From positions 1 to 54,641 of the forward strand of contig JAJRVS010000316.1 in NCBI GenBank assembly GCA_024277195.1: a stretch of DNA of 54,641 bases, given 5' to 3'. The translations under genes were made by a program, and so were the position numbers. The notes below the pieces were generated by a model, which saw nothing but the letters and a program-made list of their open reading frames with translations, had not been told where the DNA came from and did not search any database. This stretch comes from Verrucomicrobiota bacterium (lineage in GTDB: Bacteria > Verrucomicrobiota > Verrucomicrobiia > Verrucomicrobiales > DEV007). Numbering within the stretch: the stretch's first letter is position 1; each line of letters opens with the position of its first letter. This document shows positions 35,467-40,770 of the stretch, piece by piece.

Positions 35467-36759
35467 TCAGACGCCGAGACTAGTGGATTCGGATTTTTTA
35501 AGCATCGAAGGCACTAGCCCCAGGGTGGCGACGAGGATCAGGGTCATTAGACTGAAGGCGAGTAAGATGCCGTCGAAGGAGCTTAATTGTTGGGCAGCGC
35601 TGAGCCCCCAGCGACTTTTCAGGATGCCGATCTTCAAGAACCAGGCGGGCAGCAAACCAGACAGGGCGGTGCCTGCCATTTGGTAAATGATGAACATGGA
35701 GGAGGCGACGGATTTGTTTTTATTTGGCAGGATGGCTAAGAGTTCGGTGGTCATGGCGATGCCGACGGCACCGAGGGCTGCTCCGAGCATGAAATGAAGG
35801 ATGCCTAGATAAAATGGCATGAAGGATAGTGGAACAAACACCCTGAGCAGGAAGGCGACCATGGTTTGTGCTAGCATGATGTGGCAGCCGGCAAAAACCG
35901 AACGCGTTCCGTGGCGATCGATGATGCGGCCACCCATGAACATGCCGAACATGCTGCCGACTAGAGTGATGTTGGATAACAGAATAATGCGGGAATCTGA
36001 AAAGGCGAGCACTCGGTTTTCGACCAGAGCAAAGAGGGTGGCGGCTCCGGCGGTGAACAGGCTGAGGAGGAACATGTAGGAGCAAAAAGCGGCGAAATTT
36101 TTGGTGCGGAATACTTTGGCAAAAATTTGGGAAAAGGTTTGGTCTCCGGCTTTTGCCACCGGGGGCTCTAGCTCGGGGATGCGGCGATAGGTGAACCAGC
36201 GGGCGATATAAGCGAGTGTGGCGATGCCGTAGATGCCTTGATACATGGCGATGCTGTTATGGAGGGACAGTAGCCAGGCAAAAACCACCGAGAGGCTGAG
36301 CGAGACGATGCCGACGGTAAGCCGCAGTTGGCCAAAAAAACGTCCACGGCTTTCCGCGGGCACGATCGGACTGAGCAGGGAGAACCAGCCAGAGCCAAAC
36401 ATGGCAATGCTGCAGGAGGCAAAAATAATGCCGATGACGACAATCGTTTCGGAGGATTCCTGGCTGAAGGCGGCGAGCGCGACGATGCCCCAACCGATGA
36501 TGCCGACGGTGATGCCTGCCTGGCCGATGAGCTTTTTACCATAACGATCCGCTAGGTAGGCGGCGGGTAGCAGCAATAGGGCGTTGAGCAGGGATGGCAG
36601 CGCCAAATAGATCATGGTGCGCACGGCAGAGGCACCGATCGAGGTCAAGTAGAGCAAGAGAGTGCCATTGATGGTGGTGCCCAGTGCGATGATCTCAAGA
36701 CATTGTGTCAGGAGGATGTTGCGCATCGCGGTTTTTTCTTCTACTGGATTTAAAGTCAT
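35467..36759 (-). CDS. MFS transporter, paralogue 1
   Basis: 430 residues, 12 predicted membrane segments. The major facilitator loop between helices 2 and 3 reads [14 protein letters not shown], and the mid-protein repeat reads [15 protein letters not shown] use ATG 36759; the frame continues to a TTG at 36837 without family sequence. It is closely related to the next gene (about two thirds of the first 100 residues identical by eye). The substrate is unknown. Near the SGNH hydrolase, a sugar or sugar-acid substrate would fit but is speculative. Confidence 0.9.
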
Positions 36760-36850
36760 TGGCGGAGCCGATCCGGCGGAAGAATAGGTATGGATCGAGA
36801 GTATTCTAGTGGGATGAATATTGAATGACAAGGACAAGATGCAAAAGATC

Positions 36851-38149
36851 TCATAGGCGGTTTAAGCCCAGGCTGGCAGCTTCTGACTTCCGTAACATGG
36901 AGGGAACCAATCCCAAAGTTGCTACTAGAATGAGGGTCATCAGGCTGTAACCCGCTAGGATCGCGTCGAAGGAGCTGAGTTGGTGACTGCCGATTTGCCA
37001 AAAGTCACGCAGGATTCTGGCTTTTAAAATCCACGCGGGGATCAAGCCGGAGAGAGCTACTCCCGAGGTTTGAAAAATAATAAATATGGATGCCGCGACG
37101 GATTTATTCTTCTGCGGCAGGATGCCGAGCAGTTCGGTGGTCATGGCGATGCCGATGGCACCCATGGCGGCTCCAAAGAGGAAGTGCAGGCTGCCGAGAT
37201 AGATAGGCTGTGAGTTAGGGGAAACTAGAACTCTGAGTAAAAAAGCCATCAGGGTGAAAGCGAGCATGATGTGGCAAGCGGCAAATACCAGACGGGTGCC
37301 GTGGCGATCGACGATGCGGCCACCGATGAACATGCCGAACATGCTACCAACCAGAGTGGCATTGGAGAGCAGGATGACTTGGGTGGCAGAAAAATCGAGC
37401 ACCCGTTTTTCGATCAGGGCAAAAAGGGCAGCGGCGCCAGCGGTGAATAATCCGAGTAGGAACATGTAGGAGCAAAAGCCGGCAAAATTTTTCACTTGAA
37501 ATACTTTGGAAAGAATTTTGAGGAAAGAGCTGTTGTTGCTTTTTGCTGTAGGGGGTTCGAGTTCGGGGATACGGCGGTAGGTGAACCAGCGGATGATGAA
37601 AGCGAGCGTGGCCATGGCGAAGATTCCTTGATAGACAATGATTTCCGAGTGCATTGATAGGATCCAGGCATAGGTGATCGAGAGGACGAGGGATACCGTG
37701 CTGAAGCTTAGGCGCAGACGGCCAAAGAAACGGCCGCGGGATTGCTCAGGGATGATGGGGCTGAGCAGGGAGAACCATCCGGCGCCCATTAAGGATGAGC
37801 AGATAGCGGCCAAGATCAGGCCGAGCACAACTAGGGATTGGGAGGCGTTGCCAGCGAAAGAACCGAGCGAGATGGTGCCCCAGCCAAAAATGCCGATGGT
37901 GAGCCCGATTTGTCCGATGCGTTTTTTGCCGTAACGATCCGCTAAGAAAGCGGCAGGCAGGAGTAGGGTGGCGTTGCAGAGCGGCAGGATGGCCAGATAA
38001 ATCATGGTTCTGGCGGCGCTGGAGCCGATGGCGGTGAGGTAGAGCAAAAGGGTGCCGTTGACGATGGTGCCGAGGGCGACGATGGCCAGGCATTGCGTCA
38101 GGATGATGTTGCGCAGGGCGGACTTTTCTTCGGCGGGACTCAGGGTCAT
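36851..38149 (-). CDS. MFS transporter, paralogue 2
   Basis: 432 residues, 12 predicted membrane segments. [14 protein letters not shown] and GGRIVDRHGTRLVF mark the two halves. ATG 38149 is preferred over the TTG 21 bases upstream. It is first of the tandem pair on the minus strand with a 91-base gap. Identical runs such as NGTLLLYLT and [14 protein letters not shown] show a recent duplication. The divergent neighbour is the bufferin-like cluster; no functional tie is evident. Confidence 0.9.
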   Translation of the reverse strand: MTLSPAEEKSALRNIILTQCLAIVALGTIVNGTLLLYLTAIGSSAARTMIYLAILPLCNATLLLPAAFLADRYGKKRIGQIGLTIGIFGWGTISLGSFAGNASQSLVVLGLILAAICSSLMGAGWFSLLSPIIPEQSRGRFFGRLRLSFSTVSLVLSITYAWILSMHSEIIVYQGIFAMATLAFIIRWFTYRRIPELEPPTAKSNNSSFLKILSKVFQVKNFAGFCSYMFLLGLFTAGAAALFALIEKRVLDFSATQVILLSNATLVGSMFGMFIGGRIVDRHGTRLVFAACHIMLAFTLMAFLLRVLVSPNSQPIYLGSLHFLFGAAMGAIGIAMTTELLGILPQKNKSVAASIFIIFQTSGVALSGLIPAWILKARILRDFWQIGSHQLSSFDAILAGYSLMTLILVATLGLVPSMLRKSEAASLGLNRL

Positions 38150-38371
38150 GGTTTGCTGGTGGCTATCCAAAAGGTGCGTTTCGAAAGGTGCTTATGAGAT
38201 GAGGAAAAGGGGAATTGGTAAAAAACTATTAATGAATGTAAGTAATTGGGTTTCGCTCGCGTCCGTGTTGTAGTCGTCAGGTTAGGTGGGAGTGGCTCAA
38301 GTTGCTCTGCGTTGCTGAGACTGACAAGGTCTGAACCATAAACTGGAATAAGTAAATAACTCAAAAAAAAC

Positions 38372-38803
38372 ATGAAACAAAAACAAGAATCATCGATTCA
38401 AGATCAATCACGTCGCGATTTTTTTAACAAACTGGCGGTTGCTGCCGGAGGCGGAGTGCTTTTGGGCGCTGCGGGAGTGGCTCGTGCTGCTGATGAAAAG
38501 AGCCTGTTGCTCAGCGAGCCTCACACTTGTAAGGGCTTGAACACCTGTAAGGGCAAGGGCGCTGGTGGAAAAAATGACTGTGCCGGACAAGGGGCTTGCG
38601 CCACGGCTGAAAAACACAGCTGTGCTGGGAGTAATGCGTGTAAGGGGCAGGGGGGGTGTGGATCGGAAGCTGGTCAGAATTCTTGCAAAGGAAAAGGTGA
38701 GTGCGGAGTTCCTTTGAAAAAATCGACTTGGAAAAAAGCGCGTAAGGCGTTTGAGAGAGAAGCTAAAAAAGCAGGCATCAAAGTAGGGCCTGCACCTAAA
38801 TAA
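38372..38803 (+). CDS. Bufferin-like RiPP precursor: Tat-exported cysteine-rich protein
   Basis: 143 residues. It has a twin-arginine signal QSRRDFFNKLAVAAGG (from residue 12) and a likely cleavage after ARA (residue 39). The mature part (53-111) has nine cysteines at 53, 58, 70, 76, 84, 90, 96, 105 and 111, in repeated C-K/A-G and C-x4-5-C patterns (HTCKG, NTCKGKG, HSCAG, NACKGQGGC). A Lys-rich C-terminal helix follows (STWKKARKAFEREAKKAG). It is followed by an MNIO (DUF692) enzyme and a DUF2063/BufC protein, the context of bufferins, copper-binding peptides whose cysteines are oxidised by the MNIO enzyme. The protein is not a standard DUF2282 bufferin; classification is by context and composition. 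Confidence 0.85.
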   Translation: MKQKQESSIQDQSRRDFFNKLAVAAGGGVLLGAAGVARAADEKSLLLSEPHTCKGLNTCKGKGAGGKNDCAGQGACATAEKHSCAGSNACKGQGGCGSEAGQNSCKGKGECGVPLKKSTWKKARKAFEREAKKAGIKVGPAPK

Positions 38804-38819
38804 GCAGGGTGTTTAATTT

Positions 38820-38861
38820 TTCCGTTGTTGGATGGTGAACATCCAACAACGGAATTTTTTT
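38820..38861 (+). terminator. Strong hairpin with T-run between precursor and enzyme genes
   Basis: A perfect 15-base stem (38820-38834, 38840-38854), 5-base loop, followed by TTTTTTT. It ends 16 bases before the MNIO start. Inside an operon it probably acts as a partial terminator, so the precursor is made in excess over the enzymes. Confidence 0.85.
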
Positions 38862-38876
38862 CGATTAGAGTGAGCG

Positions 38877-39812
38877 ATGAAAGTTTCCAAACGATTAGGT
38901 CATCCGAATCTCGGACTCGGACTGGGGCTCCGCACACCGCATTTTGAGTATATTCTCGAACACCGGCCGCCGGTGGATTGGTTTGAGATTATTTCAGAAA
39001 ATTTCATCGACAGTCAGGGGCGCCCGCGCCATGTGCTCGATCAGATTGCGGAACATTATCCACTGGTGATGCACGGGGTGTCGTTATCGATTGGCAGTAC
39101 CGATGTTTTAAATTTTGATTACCTGAAAAAGCTCAAGACCCTGGCTCAAGAGATCGATGCCAAGTGGGTGTCTGACCATTTGTGTTGGACGGGAGTGGCG
39201 GGGCAGAACTCACACGACCTGCTGCCGATCCCCTTGACGGAAGAGTCCTTGGCTCATGTCATTGCGCGCATCGATGTGGTGCAGGACGTGATGGAGCGGG
39301 CTTTTGTATTTGAGAACCCGAGCAGCTATGTTGGTTTCACTGGCTCGACGATGAGCGAGTGGGAGTTCCTGTCACGCATGACGGAGGCGACCGGCTGTGG
39401 ATTGTTGTTGGATGTGAACAATGTGTATGTGTCGGCGCGCAATCATGATTTTGATCCCGAGGAATATATCCGTGCCATTCCCCATGATCGGGTGGTGCAA
39501 TTTCATTTGGCCGGGCATACCGATTGCACCACGCATTTGATCGATACCCATGATCACCCGGTGATCGCCGAGGTGTGGGCTTTGTATCGTCTGGCTCATG
39601 AGCTGACTGGTGGGGTTTCGACTTTGTTGGAATGGGATGCGAATATCCCTCCGTTCGAGGAATTGCACGCCGAGGTATTAAAATCTAAAAAATATCTACA
39701 AGGCGAGGGAGTGCAAGGACCGGTGGTGGAGGAAGCGTGTGAGTGCGCGCCGGTGGAAGAAGGCTGTGTGTCGCCACATCCCTTGCATCATTCTGTAGTG
39801 GAGGTCGAATGA
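38877..39812 (+). CDS. MNIO-family (DUF692) iron-dependent modification enzyme, BufB-like
   Basis: 311 residues, a TIM-barrel family now called multinuclear non-heme iron-dependent oxidative enzymes. Visible: [70 protein letters not shown] and [19 protein letters not shown], giving the Glu, Asp and His residues that bind iron. Known members modify cysteines or backbone of small peptide substrates. The C-terminal 40 residues carry two CxC/CxxP-type cysteine groups (ECAPVEEGC) absent from most family members I recall. The stop overlaps the next ATG (ATGA). Confidence 0.93.
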
Positions 39813-40726
39813 AGAGTGAGCCAATAGAAACAGCACCGGAACTGGACCGGGTGCAGCGGTGGATGCAGGCGGTAATCACTCACCCGGACGGGGTGTTGAG
39901 TGGAGCTGACGGAGAGGCTGCGCGTGAGTTGATTGATGCGGGACGTGGGAATCTGGAATCGGTGGTGACCCGTTCACGGGCATTGAGAGCGGCGGATCGC
40001 CTGGCGATTTATGCCAATGCTTATTATGCGAGATTGATCGAATGCATCGGTGATGTTTTTCCCGTTTTGAAGCGGGTGCTGGGAGACGATGTGTTCGACA
40101 GTTTTGCTTTTGATTATTTGCAGGCCTATCCATCAAAGAGATACACATTGAATTATCTAGGTGATAGTTTTGTCGACTTTCTGCGCGAGACACGACCTGA
40201 TCCCGAGGAGGAAAAAGACGAAGCTGACTGGGCGGATTTATTGATCAATCTAGCAATTCTGGAGTGGAGTATTTATGAGGTGTTCGACGGGCCGGGCAAT
40301 GAAAAGACGGCGATGCTGGAAGAGCGGGACGTGGTCGGAGTGGAGGCGTCAGCCTGGGTGCAGATCCGTTTGCAGACGCCGCCTTGTTTGAAACTGTTGG
40401 AATTGGCTTATCCGGTGAACCCGTTTTATACCACGGTGCGTGCTTCGCAAGATGAGTTGGAAGTGGGCTATCCTGATACGGTGACCTCCTACGTGGCGAT
40501 TTCCCGGCGGGATTACATTGTCAGGCGCTATGACTTGAGCCGTCCGCAGTATGAACTGCTGAAAGTGCTGCAAGCGGGCGGCACGATGGGCGAAGCCCTG
40601 GAGGCTTGCATGGATGTCGTGCCGGATGATGAATTGGATCAGTTGCTGGTTGATGTGCAGCAGTGGTTCAGCAACTGGACGGCGGAGAGATGTTTTTTCC
40701 AGGCCGTGGGCACAAAAAAACCCTGA
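39809..40726 (+). CDS. DUF2063/BufC-like partner of the MNIO enzyme
   Basis: 305 residues from ATG 39809, overlapping the MNIO stop. The N-terminal DUF2063 domain has the pattern [12 protein letters not shown] and ARELIDAG followed by [26 protein letters not shown], and then [21 protein letters not shown]. The C-terminal part contains a WH-like region. DUF2063 proteins (BufC/HvfC) accompany MNIO enzymes and are thought to present the precursor to the enzyme. The Asp/Glu-rich middle ([17 protein letters not shown]) is a plausible docking segment. Translationally coupled; ends in the terminator at 40719-40747. Confidence 0.9.
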
Positions 40727-40747
40727 CCTCATGATGAGATCAGGGTT
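40719..40747. terminator. Bidirectional terminator between the bufferin-like operon and fusA
   Basis: 14-base arms with one mismatch (40719-40732, 40734-40747) and a T-run on each strand (AAAAAAA before, TTTTAGATTTTTT after). It overlaps the stop codon of the DUF2063 gene and serves both convergent units. Confidence 0.85.
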
Positions 40748-40770
40748 TTAGATTTTTTAAGCTCGCTTGA

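Follow-up and report, generated by a model that had tools for sequence, protein, structure and literature searches.

The 54,641-nucleotide stretch of verrucomicrobial DNA analysed here, which we call the window, carries at 38372-40726 a three-gene bufA-bufB-bufC-like set. We believe it is probably a RiPP cassette of the bufferin/captophorin type that forms a subfamily of its own, and whose product would be matured to thiooxazoles, exported by the Tat system and bind copper in the envelope. In the cytoplasm the MNIO, to which the DUF2063 partner would present the nine-Cys precursor, would oxidise several precursor Cys to 5-thiooxazoles. By its twin-arginine signal the modified product would next enter the Tat system and, once in the envelope, would bind excess copper, the lipoprotein homologues being presumably anchored in the membrane. 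Owing to a terminator-like hairpin 3' of bufA, more precursor than enzyme would be made. The sequence-only reading had announced a nine-Cys Tat-type protein followed by a DUF692 (MNIO) gene and an overlapping DUF2063/BufC gene, and reading of the open frames finds all three at the positions it gave. The features of the locus are the following.

38238..38263, + strand: candidate ECF (extracytoplasmic-function)-sigma-like promoter GTAAGT-N16-CGTC upstream of bufA; position kept in the genus
38372..38803, + strand: bufA-like precursor, 143 aa, nine Cys; open reading frame, NF050166 BufA2 28 bits (cut-off 60)
38372..38488, + strand: Tat-type signal peptide by motif, residues 1-39; twin Arg codons at 38411-38416, predicted cleavage A-R-A/A
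38528..38704, + strand: nine-Cys core, residues 53-111, likely modified region; Cys columns and alignment to 12-Cys Buf2
38720..38770, + strand: C-terminal Lys-rich helix, residues 117-133 (W..AR..FE); AF2 pLDDT 85-91, W120 and R124 invariant
38820..38861, + strand: terminator-like hairpin with T-run in the bufA-bufB gap; 15-pair stem, z -4.4
38877..39812, + strand: bufB-like MNIO maturase (DUF692); PF05114 365 bits, NF050167 MNIO_BufB 364.7 bits
39699..39809, + strand: MNIO C-terminal extension with P-x-P end, from family comparison; PHPLHH at 39774-39791
39809..40726, + strand: bufC-like DUF2063 partner with RRE-like C-terminal domain; PF09836 72.4 bits (cut-off 27.2)
40718..40752, no strand: inverted repeat and T-run where bufC and fusA converge; visible in the sequence itself

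The assignment to a bufferin-type A-B-C cassette is borne out by the MNIO and partner genes and by the Cys-rich gene lying directly 5' of the MNIO gene. The MNIO exceeds the BufB equivalog cut-off (NF050167, 310 bits), and the metal-site-region motifs aligned with 3BWW, namely HGVSLS, SDH, ENPS, LDVNN, HLAGH, DTHDH and LLEWD, are all intact. The partner most likely starts at the ATG at 39809, which overlaps the MNIO stop, and not at the mechanically assigned GTG at 39743; its homologues start at the same place. It carries the DUF2063 domain and, judged by predicted fold only, the RRE-type C-terminal domain of PME-type 1: its AF2 model (pLDDT 92.4) retrieved TglHI (8hci, 8hi7; TglI) and NGO1945 (3dee) with Foldseek. 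The HvfC model NF050145 gave it 46 bits, under the cut-off of 142, and PADLOC gave no match.

The precursor begins with MKQKQESSIQDQSRRDFFNKLAVAAGGGVLLGAAGVARA/ADEK..., the slash marking the predicted cut, and is Lys-rich at its other end. Its signal contains S-RR-DFFNK (SRRDFFNK), a hydrophobic stretch and the A-R-A/A site, after which the nine Cys run from C53 to C111; the window's precursor has no lipobox-like Cys. As a predicted Tat substrate it thus unites a twin-arginine motif, a hydrophobic stretch, a signal-peptidase site and a host with a Tat system, TatC (PF00902) being encoded in the genome; the TIGR02811 Tat model gives it 21.6 bits, under its cut-off. The CKG/CAG repeats described earlier account for six of the nine Cys, four in CKG and two in CAG, and the Lys-rich C-terminal helix, also described earlier, is predicted by AF2 at residues 117-133 and conserved across the family. 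Export of a folded peptide, which the sequence-only reading had deduced from the twin arginines, is not what the structure prediction suggests for the unmodified protein: AF2 gives its Cys core no fold (pLDDT about 42), and modification or metal would be needed for it to fold.

We took MNIO homologues from 80 contigs and inspected the open reading frames 5' of each for precursors. The family was then searched with a profile restricted to what follows the signal peptide (the core HMM), whose seeds were chosen by eye among loci with RR; since this profile held no signal sequence, the twin arginines were not selected for by the search. By this search a nine-Cys protein lies 5' of the MNIO in most of the loci from Planctomycetota, Verrucomicrobiota and Hydrogenedentota. 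Among the 42 non-identical homologues scoring above 100 bits, RR is present in all 42, Phe stands two residues after it in 41, and exactly nine core Cys occur in 39; these counts rule out a chance origin of the precursor's features. RR recurs in 24/24 further loci from whole genomes, 23 of them above 100 bits. In the family alignment R14, R15, W120, R124 and most Cys are invariant, eight of the nine Cys columns being invariant or nearly so. A lipobox-like Cys follows the signal in 15 of the 42 homologues, which may be Tat lipoproteins. Apart from these, an acidobacterial locus (Blastocatellia, L067:4424-4921) encodes 5' of its MNIO a Tat-type precursor in which CKGEKAS is repeated in tandem about fifteen times.

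A comparison with the known bufferin classes, proposed with the original observation, gave a divided answer. The precursor is distinct from the DUF2282 type, as had been said, and its 28 bits against NF050166 leave it well below the BufA2 cut-off, as do the scores of its relatives L026 (19.8 bits) and L089 (32.3 bits), whereas L084, a 12-Cys protein with an RR signal, exceeds it (67.9 bits). BufA2 proteins have six or twelve conserved Cys and a Sec-dependent signal peptide; this family has nine, and by motif its signal is invariably of Tat type. On the other side, profile alignment places the nine-Cys core on the 12-Cys Buf2 core minus three Cys (E 9e-25); E-values are inflated for such Cys-rich profiles, and the residues between the Cys and the final VP nonetheless agree. 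The precursor therefore stands apart by score and is at the same time a diverged, duplicated Buf2/BufA2-like protein, resembling a 12-Cys Buf2 after the loss of three Cys. The sequences place the nine-Cys family as a distinct subfamily of the bufferin/captophorin kind and not as a member of BufA2.

The same core occurs in two other kinds of protein. Signal-less proteins of about 200 aa in Bacteroidota and others match it through the C-terminal helix (E 9e-34); these relatives, with the same Cys core and helix, were found at L069, L072, L077, L079, L090 and L091, and their product would stay in the cytoplasm. The match to the end of 500-700-aa PF12902 ferritin-like proteins is weaker (E 5e-17). 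Proteins of 500-750 aa joining a PF12902 ferritin-like part to a C-terminal Cys module akin to the nine-Cys core lie 5' of the MNIO in Bacteroidota, Pseudomonadota and Acidobacteriota (L061, L063, L065, L068, L070, L073, L074, L076, L078, L080-L083, L085-L088, L092 and L093) and are possible large MNIO substrates. With a Tat signal, without a signal or fused to ferritin-like domains, the nine-Cys core would be a single MNIO substrate module placed in different cellular contexts.

By homology, the nine-Cys core would be the substrate of the MNIO, and the distribution of the two genes is in keeping with this. Conservation of the Cys-rich protein without the enzyme, which had been named in advance as a reason to abandon the cassette, is not what the genomes contain: across 388 Verrucomicrobiota and 294 Planctomycetota genomes, 46 of the 47 with a precursor match also hold an MNIO. 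In Verrucomicrobiota the precursor is matched in 6/388 genomes and adjoins an MNIO in all six, five of the matches being weak and Buf2-like. In Planctomycetota it is matched in 41/294 genomes, 40 of which have an MNIO, the exception (G662) carrying its precursor at a contig edge; an MNIO is present in 28 of the 253 genomes without precursor. Strong matches adjoin the MNIO in 15/17 cases in the sampled Planctomycetota. The cassette is also present in a culturable relative, Blastopirellula marina DSM 3645 (L021). The precursor could instead be an unmodified, secreted metallothionein-like protein, the MNIO acting on something else, and the two genes are indeed unlinked in some genomes: five have a sampled bufBC locus without an adjacent precursor and the precursor elsewhere. 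We hold this reading to be very improbable, as the occurrence of the precursor follows that of the enzyme almost perfectly and the cassette has no further conserved gene. Bordering on this, the Planctomycetaceae bufBC loci without adjacent precursor are L045, L049, L051, L052, L054 and L055; the L049 and L054 genomes have their precursor at another place. In the window's own family the close form of the MNIO is found in the window's genus only, so the distribution of the cassette is patchy; the other genera have no MNIO or one about 30% identical, except for one fragmentary 58% match.

In a maximum-likelihood tree of 111 MNIOs, picked by similarity to the window enzyme so that the wider Buf2 diversity is under-represented, the Buf2-type enzymes are separated from a single group (99/95) that unites those whose substrates are nine-Cys, signal-less or ferritin-fused. 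Together with the conservation of the precursor and its co-distribution with the MNIO, this upholds the distinct subclass first proposed. The C terminus of the enzyme is longer in this group, with a median of about 60 residues from LEWD against 32-42. The P-x-P tail motif, defined after viewing the sequences so that its counts are descriptive, is present in 57/59 MNIOs of the nine-Cys Tat class and 0/14 Buf2-type MNIOs of the tree set, and absent from the MNIOs of nine further Sec-Buf2 loci. The extra Cys that had been pointed out in the MNIO C terminus do not survive comparison even inside the genus (one Cys in L015, none in most homologues); we rejected them as a functional feature, what is conserved being the extension itself and its P-x-P end.

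The MNIO-DUF2063 pairs of the systems solved so far, for fontiphorin, oxazolin and gonophorin, yielded 5-thiooxazole (PMC13097082), and the same chemistry would be expected here. Which Cys would be processed is harder to predict: FonBC left Cys followed by a charged residue unprocessed (PMC13097082), and for this reason its specificity is not transferable to the nine-Cys precursor. A modification other than 5-thiooxazole, set by the separate clade and the C-terminal extension, would fit the position of these enzymes apart from the sampled Buf2-type MNIOs, in which the conserved extension is absent, and the authors leave open whether 5-thiooxazole is the sole product of such pairs (PMC13097082). 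We regard it as distinctly unlikely, since a score above the BufB equivalog cut-off and a type-1-like partner, both found here, are linked to 5-thiooxazole.

As a mark of the subclass the Tat signal holds within the nine-Cys group, where it is invariant, and fails outside it, as some 12-Cys Buf2 proteins of Planctomycetota also carry RR. Tat transports proteins without unfolding them and is able to take finished ones, so the nine-Cys branch could finish its chemistry before export; the pathway can also be blocked genetically. A further step, in which Tat proofreading would gate export on completed MNIO maturation and the P-x-P tail of the MNIO would dock the C-terminal helix of the precursor, seems to us rather doubtful; if true, gating would be one answer, in the nine-Cys branch, to how MNIO substrates with export signals avoid premature exit. 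The signal may also be nothing other than a lineage habit of Planctomycetota/Verrucomicrobiota without mechanistic link to maturation, a reading to which we give slightly less than an even chance. The RR signals of the Planctomycetota 12-Cys Buf2 proteins speak for it, but in these phyla other Buf2 precursors have signals of the Sec or Sec/lipoprotein-like kind (L005, L006, L096-L099, L129, L134, L138), and the choice of Tat, not universal there, is invariant in the nine-Cys group. Such a habit would be compatible with the cassette we propose and contrary to gating.

Upstream of bufA, a GTAAGT-N15/16-CGTC block lies 117-134 bases 5' of the gene in three congeneric species (the window, L142 and L143); its longer form has no shuffled match in the window and is unique in the genome. 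The block was not found in other genera, where no shared motif rose clearly above shuffles, and it would function as a promoter in the genus. Between bufA and bufB a hairpin of at least 12 kcal/mol before a T-run is present in 20/38 homologous loci against about 1% of shuffles, its sequence differing between loci; the natural reading is that partial termination there would yield more precursor than enzyme. The inverted repeat at 40718..40752 is the probable end of the operon. In L142 and L143 the bufA terminator is followed, before bufB, by a further inverted repeat, GGAACAGCTT...AAGCTGTTCC, which resembles a small mobile repeat and is absent from the window. On the other side of bufA, two MFS transporter genes in tandem (window 35467-38170, - strand) point away from it, an arrangement kept across the genus.

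Around the homologous loci we found no neighbour beyond A-B-C conserved in at least three loci with a plausible link, no copper or other metal gene conserved beside the cassette, and no conserved DoxX or sigma/anti-sigma group as in Buf1. A YHS-like metal-associated protein occurs 2-3 kb upstream of the cassette in L047 (near 1-677) and other Gimesia loci, and only in these. Copper would be the metal of the nine-Cys product by default, on the analogy of characterised bufferins; a related Microbulbifer cassette showed no copper induction (PMC12538549), which counts against it. The product might serve for another soft metal, or for sulphur or oxidative stress in the envelope: Buf2-like MerC fusions and gold-induced operons are recorded for bufferins (PMC12452194), and the lack of a conserved copper gene near the cassette points the same way. 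We judge this unlikely, because the characterised thiooxazole peptides cited in PMC12452194 and PMC13097082 all bind or protect against copper. Against the copper-binding, Tat-exported bufferin that we favour stand the precursor's score under the BufA2 cut-off, the missing conserved copper gene and the unfolded Cys core in AF2.

Modification of bufferin precursors takes place in the cytoplasm although they bear export signals, and the paper on the MNIO landscape states that there must be a mechanism against premature export (PMC12452194); a Tat-using branch makes this question of modification before export directly testable. The bufferin and captophorin papers that we read give Sec or lipoprotein export for MNIO substrates, and Tat is unmentioned in the main texts of PMC12452194, PMC13097082, PMC12636315 and PMC8692599. 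Our literature search returned nothing pairing twin-arginine with a RiPP precursor and, with bufferin, only unrelated uses among the matches listed. PMC12452194 refers to hundreds of unclassified signal-bearing ORFs in a supplement, so some nine-Cys members may already be catalogued there without comment.

Among known systems, Buf2/BufA2 (Buf_6/12Cys, NF050166) shares with the present cassette the repeated CKGxN and CKGxGGC motifs, the A-B-C order and the targeting to the envelope; the present cassette differs in its nine Cys against 6 or 12, its W..AR..FE helix, its invariant Tat signal and its MNIO, which has a C-terminal extension and falls in a separate clade. The Cys-Lys group of captophorins (PMC13097082) has in common the MNIO, the DUF2063 partner and a Cys-rich precursor with Cys-Lys motifs, whereas the Tat signal and the nine-Cys architecture are unmentioned there and the chemistry here is predicted from sequence. 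DAG-RiPPs, which are lipidated MNIO products (PMC12636315), recall the nine-Cys homologues with a lipobox-like Cys and differ from the window's precursor in that feature; Tat is not mentioned for them either. The putative MNIO substrates adjamnio-I/adjamnio-1 (PMC12452194) are likewise Cys-rich and 5' of an MNIO, and they have no signal; the ~200-aa and ferritin-fused relatives described above may be among them, a likeness drawn by description only. They are paired with type-2 partners, unlike the nine-Cys cassette. The nine-Cys Tat family is a variant within the known bufferin kind, an unnamed side branch.
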